NCBI RefSeq assembly: GCF_030464365.1
Contig: NZ_VCYI01000001.1
Location: 186,001 to 250,000 of the forward strand
DNA length: 64,000 bases
Reading direction: 5' to 3'
DNA from: Methanoculleus methanifontis
GTDB taxonomy: Archaea > Halobacteriota > Methanomicrobia > Methanomicrobiales > Methanoculleaceae
The notes under the pieces are model-generated. The model was not told the origin of the DNA and did not search any database. It saw only the letters and a program-made list of their open reading frames with translations. Within the stretch, counting starts at the first letter, position 1. Each line of letters opens with the position of its first letter. This document shows positions 6,016 through 21,269 of this stretch, piece after piece. Made by a program: the position numbers and the translations under genes.

Positions 6016-7113
6016 CTACCCGCGCCCTGAACCCCGGTGGTTCACCCCGCGGACGACGTGAACCGACTCCGGCGCAAACGAGACCGAGACCCGGCTCCCC
6101 TCCCGGATCTCGAGGACGTCCACCGCCTTCCAGGAGAGGACGGATGAGAGCGGGACCCCGCAGTCGACCGTCACCCTGCTGAACGGCCCGCGCGGCACGA
6201 TGGAGGTCACGGTGCCGGGGAGGCTGTTCCTGCCGGGTGTATCCATCGACGGCGCGGCGATCCGGAGATCCTCTGAGCGGATGCAGAGGGTGACCCGCTC
6301 TCCCGTCGATGCCGGCGAACGTGCCCGGACGCGGACACCCCCGGCATCGACGACGGCGGTGCCGTCTTCCCCCTCGACGACGCCGCCCTCGACGATGTTC
6401 TCGATCCCGACGAACCGGGCGACCTCCCGGCTTGCCGGGAGGGTGAAGACCTCCCGCGGCGTCCCCACCTGCGAGAAGACGCCGTCCATCAGCACCCCGA
6501 TCCGGTGGGCGAGCCGCTGGCCCTGGTACATGTCGTGGGTCGAGAAGACGATCGTCGTCCCGAGGTCGCGGTTGATCCGCACCACCAGGTCCTCGATCAT
6601 CGCCACCGAGACCGGGTCGAGGTTCGCGGTCGGCTCGTCCATCAGGAGGACTTCCGGCTCGATCACCATCGCCCGGGCGAGAGCCACCCGCTGCATCTCC
6701 CCACCCGAGAGTGTCCGGGCTTTTCGGTCTCCGTATCCGGCAAGGCCGACCATATCGAGGGCGTCCTCGACCATCTTCCGTATCTCGCTCCTGCCCGCTC
6801 CCCGGAACCGGAGCCCGACGGCGACGTTCTCCGTGACCGTCGTGTTGAAGACGGCAGGCTTCTGGAAGACCATCCCCATCATCCGGCGGATGGAGAGGCG
6901 CCTTCCCTTATCCGCATGGATGTCGAGGCCGTTGATGCGGATCGCCCCTTCCGTCGGGGTATCGAGGAGGTCGATGAGGCGCAGCAGGGTCGACTTCCCG
7001 GCCCCGCTCGGCCCGATGACGGCGAAGATCTCTCCCCGGTTCACCTGTCCGGTGACGCCGGCGAGCACCGTCGTATCGCCGAAGTTTTTTGAGACGCTAT
7101 CGAGTTCAATCAT
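6016..7113 (-). CDS. tupC: Tungstate/molybdate ABC transporter ATPase (Tup cluster 1)
   Basis: This is the ATPase of a 365-residue class that powers oxyanion import. Walker A GPSGAGKST is at residues 34-42, the signature LSGGEMQR is near 140, and Walker B VLLMDEPTANLDP follows. A C-terminal region of about 120 residues (VGIENIVEGG, then LCIRSEDLRIA) is the TOBE/MOP-like regulatory domain seen in Mod/Wtp/Tup ATPases. It is the last gene of a three-gene minus-strand cluster and lies four bases after the permease gene. The Tup assignment rests on the neighbouring permease and binding protein. Mo versus W preference cannot be read from sequence. Confidence 0.88.
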   Translation of the reverse strand: MIELDSVSKNFGDTTVLAGVTGQVNRGEIFAVIGPSGAGKSTLLRLIDLLDTPTEGAIRINGLDIHADKGRRLSIRRMMGMVFQKPAVFNTTVTENVAVGLRFRGAGRSEIRKMVEDALDMVGLAGYGDRKARTLSGGEMQRVALARAMVIEPEVLLMDEPTANLDPVSVAMIEDLVVRINRDLGTTIVFSTHDMYQGQRLAHRIGVLMDGVFSQVGTPREVFTLPASREVARFVGIENIVEGGVVEGEDGTAVVDAGGVRVRARSPASTGERVTLCIRSEDLRIAAPSMDTPGRNSLPGTVTSIVPRGPFSRVTVDCGVPLSSVLSWKAVDVLEIREGSRVSVSFAPESVHVVRGVNHRGSGRG

Positions 7114-7117
7114 GAGA

Positions 7118-7819
7118 TCACCGGTGCTGCACCCTGGCTATGGCGAGATTGACGCCGAGGGCGATGACGAGGAGGACGATACCGAGCGCGATAGATTGGG
7201 AGATGTTCCCCATCGACGTCTCGAGCGATATCGCGGTCGTCAGCACCCTGGTCGAACTCGCAAACGACGACGCCATGATGTTGCCGCCGACGAGGATCGC
7301 CGCCCCGACCTCGGAGATCGCACGCCCGAACCCGACCGCGACGGCCGCGAGGATCGCAAACCGGGCCTCTTTCATGATGTTTATGAGGAACTGGAGACGT
7401 GTCGCCCCGAGCGAGTAGAGGGTATCCCTGATCACCGGGTCGACCCCCGAGAGCGCGGATATCGTGAGGCCGGTCATGATCGGCAGGACGAGGACCGTCT
7501 GTGCGATGACCATGGCGGTCGGGGTGAAGAGCAGCCGCAGAAAGCCGAACGGACCGACACGGGATATGAGCAGGAATATCAGGAGCCCGACGACGACGGT
7601 CGGGAGGGAATACAGCGTCTGGATCAGGTTGATGAGACTCTTCTTTCCGGGGAACGTGCCGAAGTTGATGGCGGCCCCGAGCGGAACGGCGAACAGCGTG
7701 GCGATGATCGTTGCGGTGAGCGATATGATGATGCTTCGTGCGGCGATGGCCATCACGTCGGGATCAAGCGTGACGATGAGCCGGATCGCCTCCAGGAATC
7801 CTTCGATGATCTCGTACAT
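7118..7819 (-). CDS. tupB: Tungstate-type ABC permease (Tup cluster 1)
   Basis: A membrane permease of 233 residues with five to six hydrophobic segments (for example IIISLTATIIATLFAVPLGA and VVGLLIFLLISRVG). The EAA loop, VGFGRAISEVGAAILVGGNI at about 160-180, is the contact with the ATPase. The short length and the N-terminus EIIEGFLEAIRLIVTLDP fit the TupB family rather than the larger ModB. It sits between the ATPase gene (four-base gap) and the lipoprotein gene (50-base gap). A T7 tract on the minus strand at 7847-7853, just after tupA, may lower expression of tupBC relative to tupA. Confidence 0.88.
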   Translation of the reverse strand: MYEIIEGFLEAIRLIVTLDPDVMAIAARSIIISLTATIIATLFAVPLGAAINFGTFPGKKSLINLIQTLYSLPTVVVGLLIFLLISRVGPFGFLRLLFTPTAMVIAQTVLVLPIMTGLTISALSGVDPVIRDTLYSLGATRLQFLINIMKEARFAILAAVAVGFGRAISEVGAAILVGGNIMASSFASSTRVLTTAISLETSMGNISQSIALGIVLLVIALGVNLAIARVQHR

Positions 7820-7869
7820 GCTCTCTACCTGACTTTACGCGGCCGAAAAAAAGGGTGATTTAAGACGGA

Positions 7870-8796
7870 TCAAGCGATCGGATCCTTCACTTCAGCCTGG
7901 GGCACGCCGATCTTCTCCCAGTCGTCCTGGGCAGCGTAGAAGAGCGGCTGGCCGTACTGGTCGACACCGAAGGAGGCGATCTCCTTCTGGACATCGTCAG
8001 AGATCATGAAGTTGATCCAGTCTTTCGCGACGGTGGTGTTGGTGTCGGGGTACTTTGCGGGGTTGATCTGCATGGCGCAGTAGATGTTGAGCAGGATGTC
8101 GCCCTCGTCCACGAGCGTCACGAGGTCGAGATCGCCCTTGTAGGCAAGGTAGGTCCCGATGTCGGAGAGGGTGTAGGCCTGCTTCTCGTTCGACATCGTC
8201 AGGGTTGCACCCATGCCCGTCCCGGCCTCCTGGTACCAGTCGCCGGAGCCCTGCACGTCTGCAGAGTAGTTGAACCCGGCGCCCTTCCAGATGGCCTTCT
8301 CCTTGGAGTGCGTGCCCGACGCGTCGCCGCGCGAGACGAAGACGACATCCGATCCGTCGGCCATTCCCGCCTCGCGGATGGCGGTGAACGCCGCCTCAGG
8401 CTGCATGCCGTTGATGCCTGCCGGGTCGGATTCGGGGCCGACGAGGACGAAGTAGTTGTAGGCGAAGACGCGCCGGTCGGTACCGTAGCCATCGGCGAGG
8501 AAGGCATCTTCACGCGCACGGTCGTGCACCATCAGGACGTCCACGTCGCCGTTCTGTCCGTATTCGATCGCCTTGCCGGTCCCGGCGGAGACGATCAGCA
8601 CTTCGGCGTTGTACTCCTCCTCGAAGATCGAGGTGAGGTGATCGAGGAGTTTGGTGTCGTAGAGACTCGTCGTCGTGGCGATACGAAGCTGCTGCGTCTC
8701 CACGGGGGTCGGGTCGGATGTTGTCCCGGTACAGCCGCAGATCAGCATGAGGGCGACCATCACGGCCGCAACGGCAAAAATAATTCGTTTATGCAT
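7870..8796 (-). CDS. tupA: Tungstate-binding lipoprotein (Tup cluster 1)
   Basis: This extracellular binding protein captures oxyanion and hands it to TupB. A signal peptide of about 20 residues ends in the lipobox LICGC, followed by a Thr/Pro linker. The mature protein begins RIATTTSLYDTKLLDHL; the ATTTS stretch and VFVSRGDASGTHSKE are hallmarks of the TupA family. The length is 308 residues from ATG 8796. An in-frame TTG at 8805 would add three residues, but a TATA-like ATTTAAAT at 8828-8835 is about 33 bases before the ATG. It is the first gene of tupABC, and a paralogue lies at 21270. Confidence 0.9.
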   Translation of the reverse strand: MHKRIIFAVAAVMVALMLICGCTGTTSDPTPVETQQLRIATTTSLYDTKLLDHLTSIFEEEYNAEVLIVSAGTGKAIEYGQNGDVDVLMVHDRAREDAFLADGYGTDRRVFAYNYFVLVGPESDPAGINGMQPEAAFTAIREAGMADGSDVVFVSRGDASGTHSKEKAIWKGAGFNYSADVQGSGDWYQEAGTGMGATLTMSNEKQAYTLSDIGTYLAYKGDLDLVTLVDEGDILLNIYCAMQINPAKYPDTNTTVAKDWINFMISDDVQKEIASFGVDQYGQPLFYAAQDDWEKIGVPQAEVKDPIA

Positions 8797-8827
8797 AGTT
8801 ATCAATTAGATGTATCACAATACGTGC

Positions 8828-8856
8828 ATTTAAATAGATGCGTTTTGAGTTAATGG
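8828..8856 (-). promoter_or_regulatory. tupA1 promoter with CCATTAACT motif
   Basis: On the minus strand ATTTAAAT (8828-8835) is placed as a TATA box for tupA at 8796. About 15 bases further upstream is CCATTAACT (8848-8856), which recurs before tupA2 and, with one change, before the modA-like gene. A shared regulator site is inferred, not shown. Confidence 0.45.
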
Positions 8857-8921
8857 CAACTTAATATAATTAATGCATTTTACAAATGGGATTATTAAAT
8901 GGGATGTTGTTGATTTGCCCT

Positions 8922-9620
8922 TCACCCCATCACGATATCGCGGTAGGCATCGCCGTCCGCTTCGACAAACAGGACTGCCTTCCCACCGACGCAGGCAGGC
9001 TTCGGGAACTTTCGCAGGCTGATCGTGCCTTCCCCGACCGCCGTCCCGTCCCGGGTCATCACCTGGTCGACGCCGGAAGCGAGGATCGCGGTGACCGTCT
9101 GGCTGCCGCTGAGGTCCCGGTTCGTTCCCTTCTGGATGAACCGGCCGTCGTTCCCCGATGCCGCAAGCCCGACCCCGGCAAGCGCACCGATCACGCCGTC
9201 CTCGGTGCCGCCGAGCCCCTCAAGGCGGATTCCGGCCTGTCGGGCGAGCCCTCGTGCCTGATCCTGCGTCACGACGCTCGCCTTCGCGGAGAAACCGAAC
9301 CGGGAGAGGTCGCAGTTGATGTTCCGGTCGGCGGCGACGCAGATCCCGGGATCGCTCCCCTCGATGAAGTCGGCAAGCATCAGTTCCTTTGCCGCCACGA
9401 AGATGTCGGCCGCAGTCCCGTTCCCGGTATCCTGGATGTGGATGACCGCGGAACTGTTATGGGAGGTGTAGGGGACAGCCGGATGGACAAAGAGCTGGTG
9501 TCGGGTCACCCCGGTCACCATGTAGGAGTGTGCGAGTTCTGCTGCAATCGCGCGTGCGAGCCGTCCGGTGCCCCGGGACTCGCGTGTGTCGGTGTCGTCG
9601 ATGCCAAGGTAGAGGGTCAT
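8922..9620 (-). CDS. GIDDTD-domain protein related to the TiaS N-terminus
   Basis: A protein of 232 residues opening with MTLYLGIDDTDTRESRGTG. GIDDTD is the nucleotide-binding signature of TiaS, which makes 2-agmatinylcytidine in archaeal tRNA-Ile2. True TiaS is about 420 residues with OB-fold and zinc-ribbon parts, and these are absent here. It is therefore a stand-alone relative of the catalytic domain, also with SRGT-like and GTEDGVIGALAGVGLA glycine-rich stretches. It lies between the Tup cluster and the storage-protein homologue on the same strand, so a role tied to Mo/W is possible but unproven. A true tiaS is expected elsewhere in the genome. Confidence 0.7.
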   Translation of the reverse strand: MTLYLGIDDTDTRESRGTGRLARAIAAELAHSYMVTGVTRHQLFVHPAVPYTSHNSSAVIHIQDTGNGTAADIFVAAKELMLADFIEGSDPGICVAADRNINCDLSRFGFSAKASVVTQDQARGLARQAGIRLEGLGGTEDGVIGALAGVGLAASGNDGRFIQKGTNRDLSGSQTVTAILASGVDQVMTRDGTAVGEGTISLRKFPKPACVGGKAVLFVEADGDAYRDIVMG

Positions 9621-9700
9621 AGAATTGCTCTATATCTATCCGTATCCCGGGCAAAAGAAGACTTCTCTTGAGTAAACTAAAAGTGGTTGACCCGGGGCCG

Positions 9701-10507
9701 TCATGCCCGGATCAGGGTGCCGACCCGCTCCCCGTTGACGGCTTTCGTGATGTTGCCCGGGACATGAGCGTTCACGATCTTGATCTCGGTCACGTGGACG
9801 GCGTCCCGGAGCAGCTCGACGGCTTTCGGTTCGAGCACCATATCCTCCATCTCCATCTCGATGAGTTCATCGGCCGTGATCTCCGGGATGAACTCGGCGT
9901 CGGGATTCACGAACGGGTTTTCGGTGTAAAGGCCGTCCACGTTCTTCCCGAGGATGCAGTTCTTTCCGCCGACCACCTCCGCCATCAAAAACGCCCCGGT
10001 ATCCGTCCGGTGCGGCGGGATGCTCCCGAGTTTCGGCGGATGCTCATACAGCCCGTAGGGCGGAGTGCCCTGCACGACCGGCAGCATCCCGAGGGATATG
10101 AGCGAGGGGAGGTTTAAGAGATCGTCGGTGTGGATCCGGGTGCCGTTGTACTTCGAGAAGAGGATGGACATCATGATCGCGTTCTGCTCGCTGATCTTGC
10201 CCGCCAGCTCCGCAAGCACCCCCGTCGGCATGCCGAGATCGATCCCGACGTCGAGGATGTGCCGCACCCGGACACCGCCGCCGGTGGCGACCAGGACCTT
10301 GTTATTCCGGGAGAGTTCCCCGATCTCCTCGACCAGGGGATAGATCACGTCTCGCCCGTAGTCGATGACCCCGTGGCCGCCGATCTTGATCACGTTCAGG
10401 TCGGGCATGATCCTGACCTGTTTGCCGCTCCGGGTCTCGCGGAGCAGGCCGCGCCGGACCAGACTCTCGCCGCGGAACTTTGATTCCATCTCAAACCGTT
10501 CTGCCAT
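9701..10507 (-). CDS. Molybdenum/tungsten storage protein homologue (amino acid kinase fold)
   Basis: A protein of 268 residues that resembles MosA/MosB, the subunits of the Azotobacter molybdenum storage protein. Shared stretches recalled from that family include NVIKIGGHGVIDYGRDVIYP, the glycine loop VATGGGVRVRH, PPYGLYEHPP, IPPHRTDTGAFLMAE, the DGLYTENP segment and VNAHVPGNITKAVNGE. The bacterial complex uses ATP to build polyoxomolybdate or tungstate clusters in its cavity. The length equals that of the bacterial subunits (about 270), and only one gene is present, so a homomeric cage would be needed. UMP-kinase-like activity is an alternative. The gene sits inside the Mo/W import island and is divergent from the 10599 gene. 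Confidence 0.75.
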   Translation of the reverse strand: MAERFEMESKFRGESLVRRGLLRETRSGKQVRIMPDLNVIKIGGHGVIDYGRDVIYPLVEEIGELSRNNKVLVATGGGVRVRHILDVGIDLGMPTGVLAELAGKISEQNAIMMSILFSKYNGTRIHTDDLLNLPSLISLGMLPVVQGTPPYGLYEHPPKLGSIPPHRTDTGAFLMAEVVGGKNCILGKNVDGLYTENPFVNPDAEFIPEITADELIEMEMEDMVLEPKAVELLRDAVHVTEIKIVNAHVPGNITKAVNGERVGTLIRA

Positions 10508-10556
10508 GATAACAGCCTTACTACTTGTATGATAGAAAAAGTTAAGTGTCTTTGGT

Positions 10557-10574
10557 GTATACCTGCTGGTATAC
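10557..10574. promoter_or_regulatory. Perfect dyad GTATACC-N4-GGTATAC
   Basis: A seven-base perfect inverted repeat with a four-base centre, GTATACC TGCT GGTATAC, lies in the divergent region between the storage-protein homologue (start 10507) and the small gene at 10599. Another half-site, TGGTAT, follows at 10579-10584. The symmetry and place suit a dimeric repressor operator. The winged-helix protein at 10881 is a candidate binder by proximity only. Confidence 0.45.
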
Positions 10575-10598
10575 CAACTGGTATGGGATGGGAAGAAG

Positions 10599-10832
10599 AT
10601 GAAGATCTACGTACGTGAACGCCAGAAAGTCGGCACCGGCGTGAAGCAGCCCCGCTTCCGCGTCGTCGCCGTCGTCGAAGAGCAGGGTGAGAACAAGCAT
10701 CTGAAAGTGGAAGGAACGCACTTCAGAAAAGTCGAACTCGAACAGATTGCAAAGGACGTCGGGGCGGAGATCATCTACCTCGAGGAGATGCCCGAAGAAG
10801 AGCGCGGCGAGATGAAGGCGGAAGCGGCATAA
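10599..10832 (+). CDS. Small conserved protein, function unknown
   Basis: A 77-residue, highly charged soluble protein (MKIYVRERQKVGTGVK at the start, an acidic EEMPEEERGEMK tail). The pattern of short beta-like segments (RFRVVAVVEEQ, KHLKVEGTHF) followed by a helix (VELEQIAKDVGAEIIYLEE) suggests a small alpha/beta domain. I do not recognise a family. The start is ATG at 10599, preceded by GGGATGGGAAG. A T7 run at 10844-10851 follows the stop and probably terminates transcription. It shares the divergent regulatory region with the storage-protein homologue. Confidence 0.7.
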   Translation: MKIYVRERQKVGTGVKQPRFRVVAVVEEQGENKHLKVEGTHFRKVELEQIAKDVGAEIIYLEEMPEEERGEMKAEAA

Positions 10833-10843
10833 CCAGACGACCT

Positions 10844-10851
10844 CTTTTTTT
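10844..10851 (+). terminator. T-tract terminator
   Basis: A run of seven T bases twelve bases after the stop of the 77-residue protein gene. Poly-T tracts without a stem are the usual intrinsic terminator in euryarchaea. Confidence 0.5.
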
Positions 10852-10880
10852 GCGCCGGGCACGAGTACTTCTACGATTGG

Positions 10881-11249
10881 ATGTCCACACACGAACACGA
10901 CGACATAATCGATGCGGCCGTCCGGATCCTCCTCGAAGAGGACCGGTGCCTGACCGTCGGCTTTTCCCCGGACGGCATCTCGCTACGGTTCCCGACGACC
11001 CGGAAACTTGCCGAGCACCTCGGGATCCCGCATTACTACGTCCTTCCCCGGTTCGGGGAGATGGAGCGGGACGGGCTGATTCGCCGGGCCGAGCGGGTCG
11101 GTATCTCCACCACGGCCGCGGGGACGGAGCGTCTCCTCGCGGTCATGGCGGAGCGGCACGGCGATCGTGCGGAAGAAGTTCTGGGTGCCGGGGTCCTCCG
11201 GGCGCTCGAGATCCGCGCCGCTCAGGCCTCTTCTTCTTCCGAAGAGTAG
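10881..11249 (+). CDS. Winged-helix DNA-binding protein
   Basis: A protein of 122 residues whose middle reads PTTRKLAEHLGIPHYYVLPRFGEMERDGLIRRAERVGISTT. This is a helix-turn-helix (TRKLAEHLGIPHYYVLPRF) followed by a wing, as in MarR/ArsR-like regulators. The N-terminal helix (DDIIDAAVRILLEED) fits the fold, and a Ser/Glu tail ends the protein. It is a single DNA-binding domain with no visible ligand or metal-binding motif. Its last 28 bases overlap the convergent end of the ModC-type ATPase gene. The location in the Mo/W island makes it a candidate local regulator. Confidence 0.72.
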   Translation: MSTHEHDDIIDAAVRILLEEDRCLTVGFSPDGISLRFPTTRKLAEHLGIPHYYVLPRFGEMERDGLIRRAERVGISTTAAGTERLLAVMAERHGDRAEEVLGAGVLRALEIRAAQASSSSEE

Positions 11250-12283
11250 ACGTGGGCGGCTGAAGGCAGGAAGGCGAGATAGATCGCTTCGCCGGGTGCG
11301 AAGCCCGTCTCTTCGAACCCCTGCCGCGTCAGCGTCACCCGAAACGGAACTCCGGCATCGACAGAGACCTTGACCAGCCCCCCGTTCGGCCGCACCGAAT
11401 CCACCCGGCCGAAGACGACGTTTCTTCCGTTCTTTGACAGAGGCGCCTTTGAGAGCTGGATCTCCTCCGGCCGGATAGCAACGGAGACGGGGCCGGGTAT
11501 GGCGTTCTCCGCACGTATCTGGAGATCCCCCACCGCGACCGTCCCGTCGGATGAACCCGTTCCGCGGAGAAGGTTCTCCACCCCGACAAAACCCGCGACG
11601 AAGTCGGAATTCGGCTTCCGGAAGATCTCCTCCGCCGACCCCACCTGGATCACGTCGCCGCCGCGCATGATCGCCACCCGGTCGGCGAGGTCGAAGACCT
11701 CCTCGAAGTTATGGGTGATGTGGACGATCGTCGTCCCGGTGGCCTCGTGGATCCGGGCGAGTTCCGCCCGCAGGTTCTCGCGCGTCTTCACGTCGAGCGC
11801 GGAGAGCGGTTCGTCGAGCAGCAGGGCTTCGGGTTCCATCACCAGCGCCCGGGCAATCGCCGCACGCTGCTGCTCGCCGCCCGAGAGCGTTCCCGGGTAG
11901 CGGTGGAGGAGGTGGCCGATGTTTAAGAGATCCGCGCTCTCCTGCACCTTCCCGCGGATGAACGCGGGGTCGGCACGGTGCGATTTCAGCCCGAAGCTGA
12001 TGTTGTCCTCGACGGTCAGGTGCGGGAAGAGCATGTAGTCCTGGTAGACCATGCCGATCTTACGCTCCCGGGCCGGGACGTCCGTGATTTCCCGGCCGTT
12101 TAGGAAGATCCTGCCCGCATCGGGGGTGTAGATCCCGGCAATCGTCTCAAGAAGGATCGTCTTTCCCGCCCCTGTGGGGCCGAGGACGATGAAGTACTCC
12201 CCGTCTTCGATCGAGAGCGAGACGTTCGAGAGCGAAAACTCTCCGAGGCTCTTTGATACTGAGTCTATGGTAAGCATGGACAA
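11222..12283 (-). CDS. modC: Molybdate/tungstate ABC transporter ATPase (Mod cluster)
   Basis: An ATPase of 353 residues. Walker A GPTGAGKT is at 35-42, the Q-loop YQDYMLFPHLTVEDN near 85, the signature LSGGEQQRAAIARA near 135, and Walker B LLLDEPLSALD follows. The C-terminal ~110 residues (VGVENLLRGTG, VAIRPEEIQLS) form a TOBE-like oxyanion-sensing domain. It is the last gene of modA-trmO-modB-modC, five bases after the permease stop. The overlap of its 3' end with the winged-helix gene is convergent. Confidence 0.88.
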   Translation of the reverse strand: MSMLTIDSVSKSLGEFSLSNVSLSIEDGEYFIVLGPTGAGKTILLETIAGIYTPDAGRIFLNGREITDVPARERKIGMVYQDYMLFPHLTVEDNISFGLKSHRADPAFIRGKVQESADLLNIGHLLHRYPGTLSGGEQQRAAIARALVMEPEALLLDEPLSALDVKTRENLRAELARIHEATGTTIVHITHNFEEVFDLADRVAIMRGGDVIQVGSAEEIFRKPNSDFVAGFVGVENLLRGTGSSDGTVAVGDLQIRAENAIPGPVSVAIRPEEIQLSKAPLSKNGRNVVFGRVDSVRPNGGLVKVSVDAGVPFRVTLTRQGFEETGFAPGEAIYLAFLPSAAHVYSSEEEEA

Positions 12284-12288
12284 ACCTC

Positions 12289-13086
12289 CTAATAAACGTG
12301 CGTGGCTCCGCCGTAGCGCTCGAAGGCGTAGAGCGAGACGACCGAGATCATGATGAGGATCGTCGCCGCAGCGATGGCATACTCGAGTTTTCCGGTAGAC
12401 ATGTTCAGGAAGAGCGAGAGCGGGAGCGTCTCGGTCTTCATCCGCGTTGCCCCGGCAAGCATCAGCCCGGCGCCGAACTCACCGATCCCCTTCGACCAGG
12501 TGATCACCGATCCGGCGAGGAGACCGTTCCACGACATGGGAAGCGTGACCCGCCAGAAGGCCTGTGCGTCGGTGCAGCCGAGCGTCTTTGCCACGTACTC
12601 GTAGCGGGGGTTGACGCCCTGGAACGTCGAACGGGTCACCCGGAGCATGTAGGGTAGGTTCACGAAGAACTGGGCCATGATGATCCCGAGCGGTGTAAAG
12701 ACGAACGCAAGTCCTGCCGCAGCAAGCGACTTTCCTATCGGAGAGACCCCGAAGAAGAGCAGGAGCCCCACGCCCGCCACGAGCGGCGGGAGCGCCATCG
12801 GGATATCCATCAGCATGTTCATCACCGTCTTGCCCGGGAACGTGTAACGGGCGAGGGCGTAGGCCACCGGCACGGCGACCAGGATGCAGAGGAGCGTCGA
12901 GATGATCGACGTGATGATCGAGAGCCTGATAGCGAACTGGATCTCCTCGGAGAGGAGGCATTCAATCAGAACGGCCGGCGGGGAGTGCGTGACCACCCCG
13001 ACAAGGATCATCACGATGAAGGCGGCGATGAGGAGTGCGACCGCAACGGTCGCCATCCGAAAATAGGAGGAGTTTTTCAGGTTCAT
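12289..13086 (-). CDS. modB: Molybdate/tungstate ABC permease (Mod cluster)
   Basis: A 265-residue membrane protein with about six hydrophobic helices, beginning with VAVALLIAAFIVMILVGVV. The EAA loop around WSKGIGEFGAGLMLAGATRMKTETL matches the ModB/WtpB/CysT family. DIPMALPPLVAGVGLLLFFG is the conserved periplasm-facing segment. It starts with an ATGA overlap with the TrmO-like gene and is followed after five bases by the ATPase gene, so translational coupling is likely. Confidence 0.88.
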   Translation of the reverse strand: MNLKNSSYFRMATVAVALLIAAFIVMILVGVVTHSPPAVLIECLLSEEIQFAIRLSIITSIISTLLCILVAVPVAYALARYTFPGKTVMNMLMDIPMALPPLVAGVGLLLFFGVSPIGKSLAAAGLAFVFTPLGIIMAQFFVNLPYMLRVTRSTFQGVNPRYEYVAKTLGCTDAQAFWRVTLPMSWNGLLAGSVITWSKGIGEFGAGLMLAGATRMKTETLPLSLFLNMSTGKLEYAIAAATILIMISVVSLYAFERYGGATHVY

Positions 13087-13586
13087 GAAGACTCCTCATG
13101 CTCCCGGAGATCCTTTGGCGAGAAACTCCGGACCTTCACCTCCTCGATGTGCTTTGCGTCGACCCAGCCGCTCTGGACGTCGTCGCGGTGGTCGAACTGG
13201 CGGACGTAGGGTTTGATGTCCAGGAGCGGCGTGCCGTCCAGCACGTCGATCCCGCGGACCCGAACGGTGTTGCCTTCAACGGAGACGACCTCGACGAGAG
13301 AGATTCCGATCGGGTTCGGGCGGTTGAAATGGCGTATGGCAAAGATCCCGCGCTCTTTGCTGCCGTCGACGAACGGGCGCTCGAGCAGGCGGAAACCCTT
13401 TGCCTGGTGGAAATGGTAGAGGAGAATGATGTGGGAGAACCCCTCAACCCCCTGCAGCCCTTCCGCATACTCGGGAAAGACCTCGATCGTCCCTTCCGCC
13501 TCGGAGAAGATGCTCTGGATGGGCGTGGTGTCCTGTTCGGTGAACGGTGAGTGAATGGTTCCTATGATCTGGTAGGTGACTTCCAT
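13083..13586 (-). CDS. trmO: TrmO/TsaA-like tRNA N6-methyltransferase
   Basis: A protein of 167 residues of the TsaA/YaeB (TrmO) beta-barrel family. The motifs IGTIHSPF at the N-terminus, GFSHIILLYHFHQA, RHFNRPNPIGISLVEV and GIDVLDGTPLLDIKPYV are diagnostic. In bacteria TrmO methylates N6-threonylcarbamoyladenosine at position 37 of tRNA using S-adenosylmethionine. Only the catalytic barrel is present, which is the usual archaeal length. It lies inside the modABC operon, 27 bases after modA and overlapping modB by four bases, an arrangement that suggests co-transcription rather than a shared reaction. Confidence 0.85.
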   Translation of the reverse strand: MEVTYQIIGTIHSPFTEQDTTPIQSIFSEAEGTIEVFPEYAEGLQGVEGFSHIILLYHFHQAKGFRLLERPFVDGSKERGIFAIRHFNRPNPIGISLVEVVSVEGNTVRVRGIDVLDGTPLLDIKPYVRQFDHRDDVQSGWVDAKHIEEVKVRSFSPKDLREHEESS

Positions 13587-13612
13587 GCGACTTCTCCCTC
13601 CTTCCTCGTATA

Positions 13613-14431
13613 TCAGGGTTCGACGTCCGCGTAGGTGTCGCTTGGGTAGGTGACGAAACCGTGTTTGGTGAAGATCTCCTTTCCTTCGTCGGAGATGACG
13701 AACGCATTGAACTGATGGGCTTCATCGGGGTGTTCTGATGACGTCAGCACGCCGATGGGAACGATCTTGACCAGGTTGTTGGTGTTCGGGATGTAGATGA
13801 TATCCATCTTCTCGGGCACGTAGAGGTCTTCCCAGATAATACCGACATCGGCCTGTTCCATGGAGATGTAGACCAGCAGTTCGTTCACCGTGCCGCTGCG
13901 GGTCACGAGGTTCTTCTCCACATCCTCAAGAAGGTCGTTCTTTTCGAGGAGTTTGTTGGTCAGCTGCCCGATGGCGGTGCCGGGGTTCTCGCCGAGCGCC
14001 ACCCGCACCCCGGGCTTTGTCATGTCTTCAAGACAGGTGATGCCGGCCGGGTTGCCCTTCGGGACGGCGATGATCGGGACGTGGTAGACGACCAGGTGCT
14101 CCTCCTCGACCAGCCCCTTCTCGTGGGCCGCATCGAAGTAGGCGGTCGCGCCTGGCATGTAGACGTCGCCCATCTCCGTCAGTTCCATCTGGGTGAGCAG
14201 GGTGTTCGACCCGCCGAAGACGAAGTTGATCGGGATGCCGGTCTCGTTCGTGAAGGTCATCGCGATCTCGTCCATCGGTTCGCGCATGCCCGCGCCGCAG
14301 TAGACGAGCAGCTCGGGTTTTGTCGTGTCGGACACCGCCGGCGTATCGGCGGTGGTTCCGGTGCATCCGCATGCAAAAGCGGCGGATGCCGCGACAAGCA
14401 GTGTGAGAATGAGAAGCAGGTGTGCTTTCAT
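13613..14431 (-). CDS. modA: Molybdate-binding lipoprotein (ModA-like)
   Basis: An extracellular binding protein of 272 residues. The signal peptide ends in AFACGC, a lipobox variant, followed by a Thr-rich linker. The mature part begins LLVYCGAGMREPMDEIAMTF and contains FVFGGSNTLLTQMELTEMGD, the ModA-type anion loop with Ser/Asn near residues 75-77. The GDVYMPGATAYFDAA stretch is the second lobe entry. It heads modA-trmO-modB-modC. A TATA-like ATGTATAAACG on the minus strand at 14462-14472 lies 31-41 bases upstream. It is divergent from the MOT1 gene. Confidence 0.86.
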   Translation of the reverse strand: MKAHLLLILTLLVAASAAFACGCTGTTADTPAVSDTTKPELLVYCGAGMREPMDEIAMTFTNETGIPINFVFGGSNTLLTQMELTEMGDVYMPGATAYFDAAHEKGLVEEEHLVVYHVPIIAVPKGNPAGITCLEDMTKPGVRVALGENPGTAIGQLTNKLLEKNDLLEDVEKNLVTRSGTVNELLVYISMEQADVGIIWEDLYVPEKMDIIYIPNTNNLVKIVPIGVLTSSEHPDEAHQFNAFVISDEGKEIFTKHGFVTYPSDTYADVEP

Positions 14432-14461
14432 AAGGATAATTACTCAGGAGAGCAAAATAAA

Positions 14462-14504
14462 CGTTTATACATCGGATCAAATTAACCTAAATAACTTAAT
14501 GGAT
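14462..14504 (-). promoter_or_regulatory. modA promoter with CCATTAAGT motif
   Basis: The divergent region between modA and the MOT1 gene holds a minus-strand TATA-like ATGTATAAACG (14462-14472). Further upstream is CCATTAAGT (14494-14502), which differs by one base from the CCATTAACT found before both tupA genes. The site could serve both directions. Confidence 0.45.
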
Positions 14505-14579
14505 TTACTTTGTCCGAAATGGTAATGTTGGTTCGTAACATCCGTTCGGAGCGGGCCGGAACCAATCCGAAACCGAGAA

Positions 14580-15743
14580 ATGGAGACGATACATACCGGG
14601 AATTGCACAATGGCGGAGAACACTGGAACGGAGGAAAGAAGCATCAGGTTTTCCCTCGAGGAGATCGCCGGAGCCGTCGGCGACTTCGGCACCATCTTTC
14701 CCATCCTGCTCGGCGTCGCTATCGTCTGCCCGGACGTGAACGTCAGCCACTTCTTCCTCTTCCTCGCCGCCTGGTACATCATCGCCGGGTTCTACTACCG
14801 CCTCCCCATGCCAATCGAGCCGATGAAGGCGATCGGCGCCATCGTCATCGCCGAAGGGCTCTGCGCCGGCGAGATCGTGGCGTCAGGCCTTGTCGTCGGG
14901 GCGCTCTTCCTCGTCCTCGGCCTCGTCGGCGGCATGACCTGGATCGGGGAGCGAATCCCAAAAAGCGTCGTCCGGGGGGTGCAGGCGGGTCTTGCGCTCA
15001 TCCTCCTCAGGACGTCGCTCGGCTACATCGTTCCCGACGCTCTCTTTGCGGCCGTATCCATCGGGATCATCCTCGTCTTCTTCGTCGCATCGCAACGCAC
15101 CCGGATCCCGGACGTCTCCGCCCTGCTGGTGCTCGGCATTGGGCTCGCCGCCGGTATCGCAACGCAGGGGATGCCGCCGTTCCGCCTGATGCCCCTCCCC
15201 GCCCTCGTCATCCCGATGCCGATGGACTTCATCACCGGAACCTGGGACCTCGCCCTCCCGCAGATACCGCTCACGCTCACGAACGCCATCCTCGCGACAT
15301 CCCTCCTCACCTACGACCTCTTCCCGAAGCAGGGCGTGAACCCTGATAGGCTCTCGCGGACGATCGGGGCGATGAACCTGGTCTCGACGCCGCTCGGCGG
15401 GTTTCCGATGTGCCATGGCGCCGGGGGGCTTGCGGCGATGTACCGGTTCGGCGCGAGAACCGGCGGGGCGAACATCGTCGCCGGGATTTTCATCCTCATC
15501 TTCGCCGTCGCCTTCGCCCCGCCGGAGGTGCTGACCCTCATCCCCTTCGGCGTCTTCGGCGCGCTCCTGGTCTTCGTGGCGCTCGAACTCGGGAAGCACA
15601 GCGCCAAGACGGATTCTTACCTGGTCACGGGGACCATCGCCGTCCTCACCCTCGCGATCGGCCTCACGGTCGCGTTCATCGTCGGGATGATCCTGGCCTA
15701 CATCATCGAGCGGCGGAGGAGTGCGGCAGCGTCCCGGTCATGA
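14580..15743 (+). CDS. MOT1-type molybdate permease
   Basis: A polytopic membrane protein of 387 residues with about ten hydrophobic segments. It carries both MOT1 family signatures, PMPIEPMKAIGA near residue 78 and GGFPMCHGAGGLAAMYRFGARTG near 275. Plant and algal MOT1 proteins are high-affinity molybdate transporters distantly related to SulP. The N-terminal pattern GAVGDFGTIFPILLG is also typical. An alternative ATG at 14610 would drop ten residues, and neither start has a strong Shine-Dalgarno. It is the only non-ABC importer in the island and is divergent from modA. Confidence 0.87.
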   Translation: METIHTGNCTMAENTGTEERSIRFSLEEIAGAVGDFGTIFPILLGVAIVCPDVNVSHFFLFLAAWYIIAGFYYRLPMPIEPMKAIGAIVIAEGLCAGEIVASGLVVGALFLVLGLVGGMTWIGERIPKSVVRGVQAGLALILLRTSLGYIVPDALFAAVSIGIILVFFVASQRTRIPDVSALLVLGIGLAAGIATQGMPPFRLMPLPALVIPMPMDFITGTWDLALPQIPLTLTNAILATSLLTYDLFPKQGVNPDRLSRTIGAMNLVSTPLGGFPMCHGAGGLAAMYRFGARTGGANIVAGIFILIFAVAFAPPEVLTLIPFGVFGALLVFVALELGKHSAKTDSYLVTGTIAVLTLAIGLTVAFIVGMILAYIIERRRSAAASRS

Positions 15744-15997
15744 TAAGGGTCGTTTGCGAAAGGGAGCCACCCTTTATCTACTGAACTTCGCGTCCTTCGC
15801 ACCTGCGGTGCTCAAGCTCCGCTTCTGGCGAAGCGTCGTTCTTCGCGTGAGTTAACCGGGATGAGCAACGATACAGCCTCACGCGAAGTGCGACGGATGG
15901 GGCATCCGGAGCTTGAGAAGCCATCAGGCTTCGAAGAGCGCGAAGCCGCGAAGGATCTGACCAGGGTTTATCTCATCCGGCGTAAGACCGGGGGGAG
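15744..15997. repeat. Intergenic long imperfect palindrome (element copy 1)
   Basis: The 254 bases after the MOT1 gene contain CTTCGCGTGAG at 15841-15851 and its complement CTCACGCGAAG at 15878-15888. Flanking arms add further pairing, such as CTCAAGCTCC (15811-15820) with GGAGCTTGAG (15909-15918). The same 11-mers occur in the opposite order at 37673-37744. I see no coding sequence. The element is probably a dispersed intergenic repeat that could form a hairpin or act as a bidirectional terminator. Confidence 0.6.
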
Positions 15998-16254
15998 ATG
16001 GACACCGTCACCACACTCGGTCTTCTCGCCGGCTCGCTCACGACGCTCGCGTTCGCACCGCAGGCCTTCCGGGCGTGGCTGCCACGCGCTCGACCGCCGA
16101 CCTCTCGCTCGCGACACTCGTCGTGCTCCTCGCGGGCGTCCTGCTCTGGCTCGCCTACGGGGTGGTGAGAGGGGATATCGCCATCGTGGCGGCGAACGCC
16201 GCGACAGCCGTCCTGGTCGGGCTTACCCCCTCGCTCAAGAAAAAGAACGGATGA
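15998..16254 (+). pseudogene. Frameshifted SemiSWEET (MtN3/PQ-loop) sugar transporter
   Basis: The frame from ATG 15998 reads MDTVTTLGLLAGSLTTLAFAPQAFRAW, a SemiSWEET first helix with the PQ motif. It then loses homology and stops near 16169. A second frame continues the family as TRSTADLSLATLVVLLAG, then LLWLAYGVVRGDIAIVAANA, and ends at 16254. The two parts are joined by CTGCC after the TGG codon, where one codon is expected, so two extra bases account for the break. An intact protein would be about 85 residues, the usual SemiSWEET size. It may be a real pseudogene, a sequencing error or programmed frameshifting. Its end overlaps the convergent WtpC gene by 20 bases. Confidence 0.72.
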
Positions 16255-17302
16255 CGTGGATCGCCGTCGCCTTCACGGAGAGGGTGGCGGGCGTTCCCGA
16301 AACGATGCCGAGATCCTGCACCGACCGCCGGGTCAGGACCGCGGTGAGCGTGACGCCCGCGTCAACCCGCACCTCGGCGACGGGGCCGTTCTCGACAACC
16401 TGGACGACCGTCCCGGCCAGCGTGTTCCGGGCGCTGGTGCGCCGTCCGCCCCCGGCGGCGAGGACGACGTCGTCGGCCCGGATACAGAGCGTGACCTCCT
16501 CGCCCGCCGTTGCGTCGGTCACCGCCTCGAAGACCAGCCCTCCAGCAACCACCGTCGCGAGCCCGTCCTCGTTTGCCGTCACCGTTCCGTCCAGGATGTT
16601 CTCGATCCCGACGAACGACGCGACTTCGCGGCTCTTCGGGGTGTTCAGCACGATACCGGCCTTCCCCTCGTCGACGAGAGCCCCATCGATGATCACCGCC
16701 ATTCTGGTGGCGAGGAGGTGCGCTTCGCGGCGCGAGTGGCTCACCTGGACGACGGTGAGCCCGTCCTCCCGGTGGAGCCGCCGGAGGTCGTCGATGAACT
16801 TCTCCTGCGTGACGGGGTCGAGCGCCGAGAGCGGTTCGTCGAGGAGGAGGATGTCGGGTTTCACCGCGATGGCTCTTGCGAGCGCCACCCGCTGCTGTTC
16901 GCCGCCGGAGAGCGTCCCCGGGTAGCGGTCGGTGAGGTGAGCGATCCCGAACCGCTCGAGGAGGGGGGCGACCTCGGCCCGGGCCTCCTTCTTCCCCATC
17001 CCCTGCACCCGGAGCCCGTAGGAGACGTTGTCGCTGACCCGCATGTTCGGGAAGAGCGAGTAGTCCTGGTAGACGAGAGCGACCTTCCGCTTCTCCGGGG
17101 GGAGTGCGGTGATCTCCTCGCCCCGGAGGAGGACGCGGCCGCTGTCCGGCCGGTGGAGTCCGGCGATCGCCTCGAGGAGCACCGTCTTTCCCGCACCCGA
17201 CGGCCCGACGATGAAGTAGTAGTCGCCCTTCCTGATCGTCAGGCTGACGTCGTTTAAGCGGAACGAGCCGAGTGCGAGCGAGACACGGTCAAACTCTATC
17301 AT
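16235..17302 (-). CDS. wtpC: Tungstate/molybdate ABC transporter ATPase (Wtp cluster)
   Basis: An ATPase of 355 residues with Walker A GPSGAGKT at 33-40, YQDYSLFPNMRVSDN as Q-loop, signature LSGGEQQRVALARA and Walker B LLLDEPLSALDP. The C-terminal region (VGIENILDGTV, LCIRADDVVLA) is a TOBE-like regulatory domain. It follows the permease gene with a 14-base overlap, so translational coupling is likely. It assigns to the Wtp system by the WtpA two genes upstream. The gene's last 20 bases overlap the frameshifted SemiSWEET gene on the other strand. Confidence 0.88.
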   Translation of the reverse strand: MIEFDRVSLALGSFRLNDVSLTIRKGDYYFIVGPSGAGKTVLLEAIAGLHRPDSGRVLLRGEEITALPPEKRKVALVYQDYSLFPNMRVSDNVSYGLRVQGMGKKEARAEVAPLLERFGIAHLTDRYPGTLSGGEQQRVALARAIAVKPDILLLDEPLSALDPVTQEKFIDDLRRLHREDGLTVVQVSHSRREAHLLATRMAVIIDGALVDEGKAGIVLNTPKSREVASFVGIENILDGTVTANEDGLATVVAGGLVFEAVTDATAGEEVTLCIRADDVVLAAGGGRRTSARNTLAGTVVQVVENGPVAEVRVDAGVTLTAVLTRRSVQDLGIVSGTPATLSVKATAIHVIRSFS

Positions 17303-18164
17303 CGTACCTCCCTAAGTACCGGGTCATTCTTCGCAGGAGGTAGAAGACCCCGAAACTGACCAGGATGACCGTGAATGCGATACTCCTGCTCGTGTGGATG
17401 CCGTCCGTCGTGAAGGAGTAGTAGATCAGCGTCGATATGATGAACGGGTAGTAGGCGATCATGATAACGCCGGCAAACTCCCCGATCGCCCTCCCCCAGG
17501 CGAGGATGGCCCCGCTGTACATGTGCCGGAGGCTCAGGGGGAGCGTGACCGTGCGGAACGTGGTGAAGGTGCCCGCCCCGAGCGTGCGGGCGACGTTCTC
17601 CAGGTGAACCGGCACCTTCTCGAACCCCTCCCGCATGGTGTTGACGTAGAACGGCGAGGCGACGAAGAGCATCGCGACGATCGTCCCCGGGAGCGCGTCT
17701 TCGAACGCAAGCCCGATCTCCGAGAGCGGCGCGCCGAGCCATCCCCGGCGCATGAAGAGGAGGTAGACGAGCAGGCCCGCCACGGTGTGCGGCAGGATGA
17801 GCGGGATGTCGACGATGCTCTCGACGGCGCCCTTGAGGCGGGAGGGGCGGGATCGCGCGAGAACGTAGGCGAGCGGGGTTCCGAAGAGGATGAGGAGGAG
17901 GACGGCGCTCGCCCCCGCGCCGAACGTGAGGAGGATGGATTCGATCACCTGCGACGACGCCGCGACCTTGAGGAGGTGAGCCGGGTCGGCGAGTTCCGTC
18001 GTTGCGATGTTCGCGAGCGCAAGCACCGTGATCCCGACAAGCAGCCCGCCCATGATGCAGAACCCGAGGGTGCACCAGTCGATATGCCGCCCCAGGTGCT
18101 CTTTCCACCGGGTGGCGACTGTCTTTGCCGGGAAGGGATCGGTTGAGAGCGCTTCAGTCTTCAT
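17289..18164 (-). CDS. wtpB: Tungstate/molybdate ABC permease (Wtp cluster)
   Basis: A membrane permease of 291 residues with about six helices. It has a longer cytoplasmic N-terminus (about 35 residues) than the other permeases of the island. The EAA loop AWGRAIGEFAGVIMIAYYP near residue 225 contacts the ATPase, and DIPLILPHTVAGLLVYLLFM is the conserved mid segment. The start is ATG 18164; the stop lies inside the ATPase gene. The gap to wtpA is 70 bases and contains two ACTGATAAC(T/C)GGT-like copies (about 18176-18215), perhaps an RNA processing or regulatory site. Confidence 0.87.
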   Translation of the reverse strand: MKTEALSTDPFPAKTVATRWKEHLGRHIDWCTLGFCIMGGLLVGITVLALANIATTELADPAHLLKVAASSQVIESILLTFGAGASAVLLLILFGTPLAYVLARSRPSRLKGAVESIVDIPLILPHTVAGLLVYLLFMRRGWLGAPLSEIGLAFEDALPGTIVAMLFVASPFYVNTMREGFEKVPVHLENVARTLGAGTFTTFRTVTLPLSLRHMYSGAILAWGRAIGEFAGVIMIAYYPFIISTLIYYSFTTDGIHTSRSIAFTVILVSFGVFYLLRRMTRYLGRYDDRV

Positions 18165-18234
18165 GTCCGTGTATTCGCTGATAACTGGTATGCACGCTTC
18201 ACTGATAACCGGTTGGGAAAAAGAAGAGTGGGGT

Positions 18235-19302
18235 TCAGGCTTTCATCTCAACAAGCGACTGGAGAGCGTCAGGAACGTCGCCGTAGCCGCCCGCGGGCAC
18301 GATCGGGGGCTGGCCGTCGCCGGTGAGGATCTCCTGTCCGGTGGCGCCGATCAGCGTCTCCACGAACTCGATACCGAGGTCGGGGTGCTCGGCGATCTTC
18401 GGGACAGTCACGCCGTAGACGATCGGCGAGCCCACGTAGAGTGTGGTGCCGTCGCCCTTCTTTGCCTCGGTCTGGACGGTCGCGTAGTTCTCCGCGAAGT
18501 CTATCGACGAGAGATCGATCTCCTCAGGGAGTTCGATGAACTCGAGGTCGTTCTGGACGGCAACGCTCCGGTACTCCCAGGCGTAGTCAAGTCCGCCGGC
18601 CTGAACCATCTGGACGAGTTCGACGCTCTTCGGGCGGATCGTCAGGGTGGTGCTGTCGGGCTTCGGGTCGGCGGCGTGGATCGTGTAGACCCCGTCCTCG
18701 TCGGTGACGGTGATCGCGCTGTGCTCGCTGACTAGGGTCTCGAAGATCTGGTCGTCTTCATAGTAGGCCTCGGCGAGCTGGATCACCATCGGGGTGCGGT
18801 AGCCGCAGGGATCGGAGTTCGGGTCGGAGAAGCCCCACCGGACGCCGTCACGGTCGAGGATCTCGTACCAGTTCTCGGCGGTGATCTCGTCTGCGTACTT
18901 GCTCTCGTTAGAGTAGGTCAGGACCATCCGGTTCTTCGCGAACGTGAGGTACCAGTCGGCGTGCTCCGGGATCATCATCTCCGGGATGAGGTAGTAGTCG
19001 GCGGAGGCGACGACGTCGGCGGGTTTGCCGTTCTCGGTCACCTTCTTGATGCAGTCGACGCTGCCGGCTGGCTCGAGGAGCACGGTGACGCCGGCATGTT
19101 CTGCTTCGTATTCTGCTTTCACCTTCTCAAACGGTCCGGTCAGGCTCCCGGCATGGAAGACCTTCACCTGGACGTCTTCGGCGGCGGTCGCCGTCGGCGT
19201 GGGGGTCGTCGTCGGGTCTTCGGTCGTCCCCGTGCAGCCGGAGAACAGAACCGCGGCAGCGACGATGAGACCGATAAACGCACATAGGCGGGTTAGTTTC
19301 AT
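18235..19302 (-). CDS. wtpA: Tungstate/molybdate-binding lipoprotein WtpA
   Basis: The binding protein of a Wtp system, 355 residues. The signal peptide ends in the lipobox LFSGC and is followed by a Thr/Pro linker. The mature sequence opens VKVFHAGSLTGPFEKVKAEY, and the WGFSDPNSDPCGYRTPMVIQ stretch is the archaeal WtpA signature. Characterised Pyrococcus and Archaeoglobus WtpA proteins hold tungstate or molybdate in octahedral coordination with very high affinity. It heads wtpABC on the minus strand. The upstream region is A/T rich with ATACTTTTAACATT, a weak TATA candidate. Confidence 0.9.
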   Translation of the reverse strand: MKLTRLCAFIGLIVAAAVLFSGCTGTTEDPTTTPTPTATAAEDVQVKVFHAGSLTGPFEKVKAEYEAEHAGVTVLLEPAGSVDCIKKVTENGKPADVVASADYYLIPEMMIPEHADWYLTFAKNRMVLTYSNESKYADEITAENWYEILDRDGVRWGFSDPNSDPCGYRTPMVIQLAEAYYEDDQIFETLVSEHSAITVTDEDGVYTIHAADPKPDSTTLTIRPKSVELVQMVQAGGLDYAWEYRSVAVQNDLEFIELPEEIDLSSIDFAENYATVQTEAKKGDGTTLYVGSPIVYGVTVPKIAEHPDLGIEFVETLIGATGQEILTGDGQPPIVPAGGYGDVPDALQSLVEMKA

Positions 19303-19423
19303 GAAATAACGTTTGGCGGTGGCCCAATGTTAAAAGTATTCATCTCGGCAAATGTTAATCAAATTGATTTACCTGGCATTCCCGGACGGATCAGATTCCG
19401 GTGGAAAGGGCTTTGATGGGGAT

Positions 19424-20509
19424 TCAGGCCCCTTTCCGCGGGATGAGATGAACCGCCTTCGCCTGGAGAGAGACCCAGACCTCCATCCCCTCGTGAAGAC
19501 CGAGGGCCTCCGCCCTCCTCGCGGTCACCAGTGCGACAAGATCGCACCCGCAGCGCACCGTCACGTTCACGAACGGCGCCGTGGGCTCGATGGCGGTGAC
19601 CGTCGCCGGGAAGAGGTTCTCGGCCTCCTCGTAGCCGGGCTTCCTCCGGTGCAGGGAGATGTCTTCCCCACGGATGACCATCTTCACCTCGTCGGCGGGC
19701 GGCGGGGTCGCCGAGAGGATCTCCTTTTCCCTCGCCTCCACGACGGTGAAGTCCCCTCTCCGGGAGACGACCCGGGCGGGAATGATGTTCTGGACGCCCA
19801 CGAACCGGGCAATCTGCTGGTTCTTCGGTTCGCGGAATATCTCGCGGGACGGCCCGGTCTGGGCGATCGTGCCCTCGATCATCACCCCGACCCGGTCGGC
19901 AAGGCGCTGACCCTGCGCCAGATCATGGGTGCTTATGAGGACGGTCATGTCGGCCTCGCGATTCAGCCGGGTCACGATCGCCTCGATGGTGGCGGTCGAT
20001 GTCGGGTCGAGGTTCGCCGTCGGTTCGTCCAGGAAGAGGATCTCGGGATCGGTCACGAGCACCCTCGAGAGCGCCACCCGCTGCTGTTCGCCGCCGGAGA
20101 GATCGATCGCCCGGCTCTTGATGTAGCGGGAGAGCCCGACGGCTTCGAGGGCCTCCTTCACCTTCCGGTCGATATTGTCGCCGGGAGCACGCCGGTACCG
20201 GAGCCCCATCGCGACGTTGTCGTAGACGGACGAGTTGAAGACGATCGGCCTCTGAAAGAGCATCCCCATCCGGCGGCGGAGGTCGAGCCAGGTGCCGTGA
20301 TCCGCGACCGTGTCGACCCCGAAGACCGAGAGTTCCCCGGCGTTCGCGGGCTCGATCAGGTCGAGGAGCCGCAGAAGCGTGCTCTTCCCCGACCCGCTCG
20401 GGCCGATGAGCGCGAGGATCTCGCCTTCTTCGACCGAGAGGTCGACGTCGTGCAGGACTTCAAGGCTGCCGTAGGATTTTCTGATGTTGTGTGCTTCGAT
20501 GACCGTCAT
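19424..20509 (-). CDS. tupC: Tungstate/molybdate ABC transporter ATPase (Tup cluster 2)
   Basis: An ATPase of 361 residues with Walker A GPSGSGKST at 36-44, signature LSGGEQQRVALSRV and Walker B ILFLDEPTANLDP. The TOBE-like C-terminus includes VGVQNIIPARVV and VIRGEDISLHR. It resembles the Tup cluster 1 ATPase more than the Mod or Wtp ones (RLLDLIEPANAGE, FQRPIVFNSSVYDNVAMGLRYR versus FQKPAVFNTTVTENVAVGLRFR). It is the last gene of the second tupABC, four bases after the permease. Confidence 0.88.
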   Translation of the reverse strand: MTVIEAHNIRKSYGSLEVLHDVDLSVEEGEILALIGPSGSGKSTLLRLLDLIEPANAGELSVFGVDTVADHGTWLDLRRRMGMLFQRPIVFNSSVYDNVAMGLRYRRAPGDNIDRKVKEALEAVGLSRYIKSRAIDLSGGEQQRVALSRVLVTDPEILFLDEPTANLDPTSTATIEAIVTRLNREADMTVLISTHDLAQGQRLADRVGVMIEGTIAQTGPSREIFREPKNQQIARFVGVQNIIPARVVSRRGDFTVVEAREKEILSATPPPADEVKMVIRGEDISLHRRKPGYEEAENLFPATVTAIEPTAPFVNVTVRCGCDLVALVTARRAEALGLHEGMEVWVSLQAKAVHLIPRKGA

Positions 20510-20513
20510 GGTA

Positions 20514-21209
20514 TCACCGCCGCTGCACCAGGGAGAGGGCTATGTTCACCCCGAGCGCCACCGCGAGGAGGATGATCCCGAGTGCAATCGAGAGGGAGTA
20601 GTTTGCCATCGAGGTGTTGAGCGCGATCGCGGTGGTGAGGACGCGGGTGGCGCCCCGGATGTTGCCGCCGACGATCATCACCGTCCCGACCTCGGCGATC
20701 GCCCGCCCGAAGCCCAGGAGGACGCCGGACATGACCGCGAACCGCGCCTCCGCGATGATCGTCATGACCGTCTGGAGCCTGCTCGCGCCGAGCGCGGTGA
20801 TCGTGTAGCGCTTGTCCCGGTCGATCCCGGAGAGCGCCGAGACCGTCAGCCCCATCAGGAGCGGGATGATGAGGACGGTCTGGGCGACGATCATGCCGCC
20901 GGGGGTGTAGAGAAAGCGGAGGAACCCGAAGGGGCCGACGTTGGAGAGGAGCAGGAAGATGACCAGACCCACGATGACGGTGGGGAGGGCGTACAGCGTC
21001 TGCAGCGTGGAGACGACCGCGTGCTTCCCCCGGAACTCGTAGAAGTAGATCAGCGCCCCGAGCGGCAGGGCGATGAGCGCGGCGAAGAAGGTGGCGGTGA
21101 GGGAGACATAGAGCGAGCGGATGGTGATCTCCACCACCTGCGGGTCGAGGGTGATGATGAGCTCGATTGCTTCGATGAATCCCTCGATGATTGGGTTCCC
21201 GTTCACCAC
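20514..21209 (-). CDS. tupB: Tungstate-type ABC permease (Tup cluster 2)
   Basis: A membrane permease of 231 residues, clearly paralogous to the one at 7118 (IIEGFIEAIELIITLDPQV, SALSGIDRDKRYTITALGAS, LGFGRAIAEVGTVMIVGGNI as EAA loop). Five to six hydrophobic helices are visible. It lies between the ATPase gene (four-base gap) and the binding-protein gene (60-base gap), copying the spacing of Tup cluster 1. A duplication of the whole cluster with later divergence is the simplest origin. Confidence 0.88.
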   Translation of the reverse strand: MVNGNPIIEGFIEAIELIITLDPQVVEITIRSLYVSLTATFFAALIALPLGALIYFYEFRGKHAVVSTLQTLYALPTVIVGLVIFLLLSNVGPFGFLRFLYTPGGMIVAQTVLIIPLLMGLTVSALSGIDRDKRYTITALGASRLQTVMTIIAEARFAVMSGVLLGFGRAIAEVGTVMIVGGNIRGATRVLTTAIALNTSMANYSLSIALGIILLAVALGVNIALSLVQRR

Positions 21210-21269
21210 ACTCCCTCACCCTCCGGACTCCCTGTCACCCTGCCGATCACCTTGTTACCACTCCACGTT

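Follow-up and report, generated by a model that had tools for sequence, protein, structure and literature searches.

A single-gene relative of the bacterial molybdenum storage protein, with a strict 77-aa companion, in the archaeon Methanoculleus methanifontis

The window analyzed here, a 64,000-nucleotide stretch of the Methanoculleus methanifontis genome, encodes a 268-aa protein of the molybdenum storage protein (MoSto) family. The storage reading is based on homology, predicted fold, phylogeny, genome context and a strict companionship with a second, small protein. It is quite probable that the protein builds a MoSto-type Mo/W storage cage from one kind of subunit, which is fed by importers and serves Mo/W-pterin enzymes. 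To our knowledge, MoSto has been described solely from nitrogen-fixing bacteria, as a heterohexamer; in Azotobacter the cage consists of three MosA and three MosB subunits. A paper from 2019 described MoSto as having no known homologs (PMC6448029). No report of an archaeal MoSto was found in open-access full texts, and priority is not certain.

The storage gene is surrounded by a 16-kb island (6016–22241) in which a MOT1 transporter accompanies four ABC importers of the Mo/W type. The features of the island, in window coordinates, are as follows.

6016–8805, minus strand: tupCBA-like tungstate ABC importer 1 (TupA 7e-55, TupB 2e-46, WtpC-like 5e-80; below the equivalog cut-offs), with an ATPase carrying TOBE (6016–7113), a permease (7118–7819) and a binding protein (7870–8805)
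8922–9620, minus strand: TiaS-TCKD-like protein with weak TCKD similarity, directly downstream of the storage gene
9701–10507, minus strand: probable archaeal single-subunit Mo/W storage protein of the MoSto family, 268 aa, assigned by homology, tree and predicted fold
10599–10832, plus strand: 77-aa protein (small77), encoded divergently to the storage gene and strictly linked to archaeal MoSto across genomes
10881–11249, plus strand: 122-aa probable winged-helix regulator with weak DtxR/2x4h-type and HTH similarity, a recurrent neighbor
11222–14431, minus strand: ModABC/Wtp-type importer (ModA TIGR01256 86.9 bits, above cut-off), with an ATPase (11222–12283), a permease (12289–13086) and ModA (13613–14431)
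13083–13586, minus strand: TrmO-N-type gene embedded in the ModABC/Wtp-type importer
14580–15743, plus strand: MOT1-family (MFS_MOT1) molybdate transporter (PF16983 2e-52)
16235–19302, minus strand: wtpCBA tungstate/molybdate ABC importer (WtpA TIGR03730 403 bits, above cut-off)
19424–22241, minus strand: tupCBA-like tungstate ABC importer 2 (TupA 7.5e-59; TupA/B/C below the equivalog cut-offs)

The first-pass annotation had placed an archaeal relative of MosA/MosB at 9701–10507 and gave no strand. The gene was confirmed at this position as an intact ORF of 268 codons with an ATG start, and it lies on the minus strand. A single-sequence search of the PDB returned Azotobacter vinelandii MosB (2ogx_B, 6ris_B, and 5o5w_B) at 2e-63, with residues 8–268 aligned end to end, and MosA (2ogx_A and 4f6t_A) at 6e-48 over residues 14–267; the next matches were UMP kinases (UMPKs), the best of them at 6e-10. 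The identities were ~43% to MosB, ~38% to MosA, and 21–25% to UMPKs. All four motifs quoted by that annotation were present (PPYGL, IPPHRTDTGAFLMAE, DGLYTENP, and VPGNITKAVNGE), and the counterparts in MosB (PPYKL, IPPYRTDAGCFLLAE, DGLYTANP, and VPGNLTRALAGE) were colinear with them in the alignment. These motifs are of the MosB type, and MosA has PPYHHHEFP instead. Agreement of the motifs by chance was ruled out by the end-to-end alignment with MosB. Among profile libraries, Pfam assigned the protein to the AA_kinase superfamily alone (PF00696, 3e-26, 92.8 bits against a gathering score of 24.9). No MoSto model was among its NCBIfam matches, and the PyrH models scored far below their cut-offs. 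A search for viral relatives found none.

A structure prediction had been recommended as a check, and the AlphaFold model (pLDDT 92, pTM 0.89) proved nearest to MosB. Foldseek matched the model to MosB at 5e-31 (TM 0.92) and to MosA at 1.5e-28, whereas the UMPKs were more distant (5e-15, TM 0.69, and not above 0.70 overall). The protein has the N-terminal arm of the MosB/MosA type, which UMPKs lack.

In a maximum-likelihood tree of 89 proteins, whose bootstrap was not fully settled, UMPKs were separated from all MoSto proteins (archaeal, MosA, and MosB) at 99/97. The clustering with UMPKs that had been named as a refuting outcome was thus not seen, and the proposed kinship to MosA/MosB was upheld by sequence, fold and tree alike. 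MosA and MosB formed one group each and were united at 99/99, which indicated that their duplication took place on the bacterial side. The archaeal protein is therefore not a MosB that lacks its partner, even though the mean identity of the archaeal proteins was 42% to MosB vs. 38% to MosA. In the same unsettled bootstrap, the archaeal proteins formed a single clade in only 26% of the trees. The MosA/MosB duplication does not include the archaeal gene, and a cage of one subunit type is therefore the likely form.

The copy number agreed with the earlier statement that only one subunit gene is present. Where bacterial MoSto has two different subunits (alpha3beta3), the source genome gave one match, and most relatives likewise had a single copy. 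Archaeal MoSto was detected in 67 of the 393 genomes of the phylum, mostly as a single gene, and it occurred in several families within and beyond the order of the source organism. Among near relatives, 46 of 61 had matches, some few of them weak and at the superfamily level. A tandem MoSto pair was carried by seven genomes, all from one genus in another family (f4/g6). This pair arose on its own, as a second route to two subunits.

The residues were compared across 46 aligned MoSto proteins, including 36 archaeal proteins and five MosA. K41, R80, R82, and H83 were invariant in 46/46, and the GxGxRxRH motif was specific to MoSto, with Arg80 and His83 being additional relative to UMPK. Archaeal Lys41 corresponds to MosB Lys42, for which a variant structure exists (6ris “Kb42S”), and archaeal Glu155 corresponds to MosA Glu159. 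The ATP-cleft residues shared with MosB are kept, and the cluster ligands of MosA and the Met149 of MosB are replaced. In MosA, Glu129 and His156 are covalent cluster ligands (PMC4504029). Both residues and His140 were found in all five MosA aligned, and the archaeal counterparts are His126, Gly152, and Leu136; the complete MosA set that holds the Mo8/W3 clusters, including the His156–His158 run, is absent from the archaeal protein. His140 is a further cluster ligand. His126 is itself variable in archaea (H in 23/36, otherwise K, S, A, Q, or P). Met149 of MosB is said to have been proposed as the molybdate gate by Bruenle and co-workers in 2019. Its position is Thr148 in 36/36 archaeal proteins, and MosB Lys153 is replaced by Gly. 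In the same stretch the archaeal proteins have a polar set of their own, namely Arg124 (30/36), His126, Asp129 (36/36), and His146 (28/36); the His146 position is Gln in the source protein. Since the cluster anchors and Met149 are replaced, the cluster chemistry may differ, and the archaeal store could be less clustered than that of Azotobacter or chemically different from it. Fold and residues together thus point to an architecture that is the same as in MoSto and a cage chemistry that is different.

These replacements are also what would be expected if the protein were a MoSto-family ATPase acting as a transient oxyanion chaperone or buffer for cofactor insertion, with no large polyoxometalate clusters and with a cage that is vestigial or holds few atoms. 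The single subunit, which has to be both pump and store, and the strict small companion would fit this explanation as well. However, the MoSto fold and the N-terminal arm are retained, and Arg124/His126 and His146 could be alternative cluster ligands. Moreover, not every cluster of the Azotobacter protein depends on ligands, some being retained through van der Waals contacts instead (PMC4504029). We consider a transient buffer unlikely.

An assignment as UMP kinase (PyrH), or as a kinase of some other small molecule within the amino acid kinase superfamily, is very improbable. It is favored by automated annotation, which often labels such proteins UMP kinase (Azospirillum MosB orthologs carry the annotation “uridine (monophosphate) kinase”), by the Pfam AA_kinase match, and by the NCBIfam pyrH_arch match (3e-17). 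PyrH (P. furiosus 2brx and E. coli 2bne) shares with MoSto the superfamily fold, the Lys/Gly-loop ATP site and an anion-binding Arg; archaeal Arg82 is equivalent to Arg62 of E. coli UMPK, which binds the UMP phosphate. However, PyrH has neither the N-terminal arm nor GxGxRxRH, and it retains an Asp for the UMP ribose that is lost in MoSto. This residue, Asp77 of E. coli UMP kinase, was Asp in 4/4 PyrHs in an alignment with them, whereas MosA, MosB and the archaeal proteins all have Ala there (Ala99 in the storage protein). The storage protein scored 63.1 bits against a PyrH equivalog cut-off of 158.05, and a separate true PyrH was found on another contig of the genome (267 bits, cut-off 158; 59.7 for the storage protein). 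The UMP kinase identity was rejected on the sub-cut-off score, the separate PyrH, the tree, the fold, and the PDB ranking.

The companion gene, small77, was found by profile search in 70 of the 393 genomes: in all 67 with MoSto and in 3 of the 326 without it (Fisher p ~1e-72, relatedness ignored). The three exceptions were incomplete genomes of one genus. Wherever MoSto is duplicated, small77 is duplicated too, and at G357:C1:954000-954652 both genes contained internal stops, which indicated joint decay. The two genes were divergent and 85–275 bp apart in 57 cases. Elsewhere they were convergent or, as in G292 and G415 (48 bp upstream), on the same strand, and in a few genomes the genes were apart. 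Because the pairing was kept in the convergent and same-strand layouts, a shared promoter does not explain it. Eight positions of small77 were invariant (R6, R8, G14, P18, A24, H41, R43, and E48). It had no family match in Pfam and none in the PDB, and a fold search gave no convincing match, which means little given that the model had a pLDDT of only 71. Relatives of small77 near bacterial mosAB were looked for and none were found. We conclude that small77 is a new protein family, and that it probably acts directly in the system, where it would regulate loading, assembly or the release of metal. Its basic invariant residues might, speculatively, fit the binding of an oxyanion or of nucleic acid.

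That the storage gene repeatedly stands divergent to the 77-aa gene and a winged-helix gene would also suit a sensor or regulatory subunit, which senses Mo/W and controls the importers together with these two neighbors and stores nothing. However, the persistence of the pairing in the other layouts points to more than a shared promoter, and the nearest family is established as a storage system; such a sensor is highly improbable. The 122-aa winged-helix-like protein carries invariant PHYY and RxERxG motifs and is a candidate Mo/W regulator.

The gene context strongly supports a Mo/W role for the storage protein. At least one Mo/W transport gene was found beside MoSto in 24 of the 27 archaeal loci with longer flanks (L013–L029 and L162–L171), other families included. 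Some TupA/B and WtpC scores fell below the equivalog cut-offs, so that the importers are assigned to tungstate or molybdate only tentatively. MOT1 was rejected as a strict companion, as it occurred in 124 of the 393 genomes, many of which had no storage gene. Across the genus, the TiaS-TCKD-like gene is found immediately downstream of the storage gene, and the TrmO-N (tRNA-methyltransferase O type) gene is retained inside the Mod/Wtp importer operon in many relatives.

The genome contains genes for four FdhA (formate dehydrogenase) and for at least three FwdB/FmdB (formylmethanofuran dehydrogenase B), and a search for Mo-nitrogenase found no NifD/NifK above the model cut-offs. Supply to nitrogenase in the source organism was rejected on this ground, and any store would thus serve Mo/W-pterin enzymes. 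Apart from further weak matches, PF00148 hit a CfbD-like protein in the genome that is encoded next to CfbC; the nitrogenase-like matches are accounted for by this pair. CfbC (cofactor F430 biosynthesis) and the adjacent CfbD-like gene lie ~45 kb from the storage gene (L154:9234-11079).

Here, we infer a mechanism that extends from a homohexamer with pumping and storage to the identity of the metal and the role of the companion. The Tup, Wtp, Mod, and MOT1 systems would import molybdate or tungstate, and six copies of the one subunit would most likely make the cage. The former UMP-kinase cleft of each subunit would hold Mg-ATP along with molybdate or tungstate, bound through the invariant Lys41, the GxG loop, Arg80/Arg82/His83, and Asp169. 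ATP hydrolysis would then drive the oxyanion into the cage, where it would condense and be kept as clusters. The metal would be released on demand to the formate and formylmethanofuran dehydrogenases of methanogenesis, not to nitrogenase. A fuller version is put forward tentatively, as a real possibility that falls somewhat short of probable: a distinct archaeal system, in which the one-subunit, ATP-driven cage outside the MosA/MosB duplication would hold mainly tungsten with its own cage ligands, depend on the 77-aa protein as an obligate partner for loading, nucleation or release, and supply the formate and formylmethanofuran dehydrogenases.

The Mop/Tub (TOBE-domain) proteins have likewise been proposed to keep a reserve of Mo/W in the cytoplasm, supplied by Tup/Mod importers, but their fold is unrelated to that of the storage protein. 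Tub of Eubacterium limosum has 70 aa and forms a hexamer that holds eight single oxyanions without ATP (PMC11980592).

The archaeal proteins suggest that the storage cage occurs far beyond the nitrogen-fixing bacteria. Several questions can now be tested, including the contents of a cage without the cluster ligands of MosA, and whether metal storage, perhaps of tungsten, is a buffer for methanogenesis from formate and CO2 in metal-poor settings. How a kinase was turned into an ion pump also becomes testable, because the ancestral protein may have been similar to the one-subunit form.

A genome-collection scan gave 354 loci with relatives of the storage protein. The best 80 of the 354 were all bacterial, and nearly all of these were adjacent mosB-mosA pairs in proteobacteria. 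One-subunit MoSto may occur in bacteria also. On plasmid p5 of Azospirillum brasilense Cd (NZ_CP033323.1, L136:5277-5876), mosB was an unannotated and apparently disrupted ORF of 199 aa, which adjoins an intact mosA; in other strains mosB is whole.
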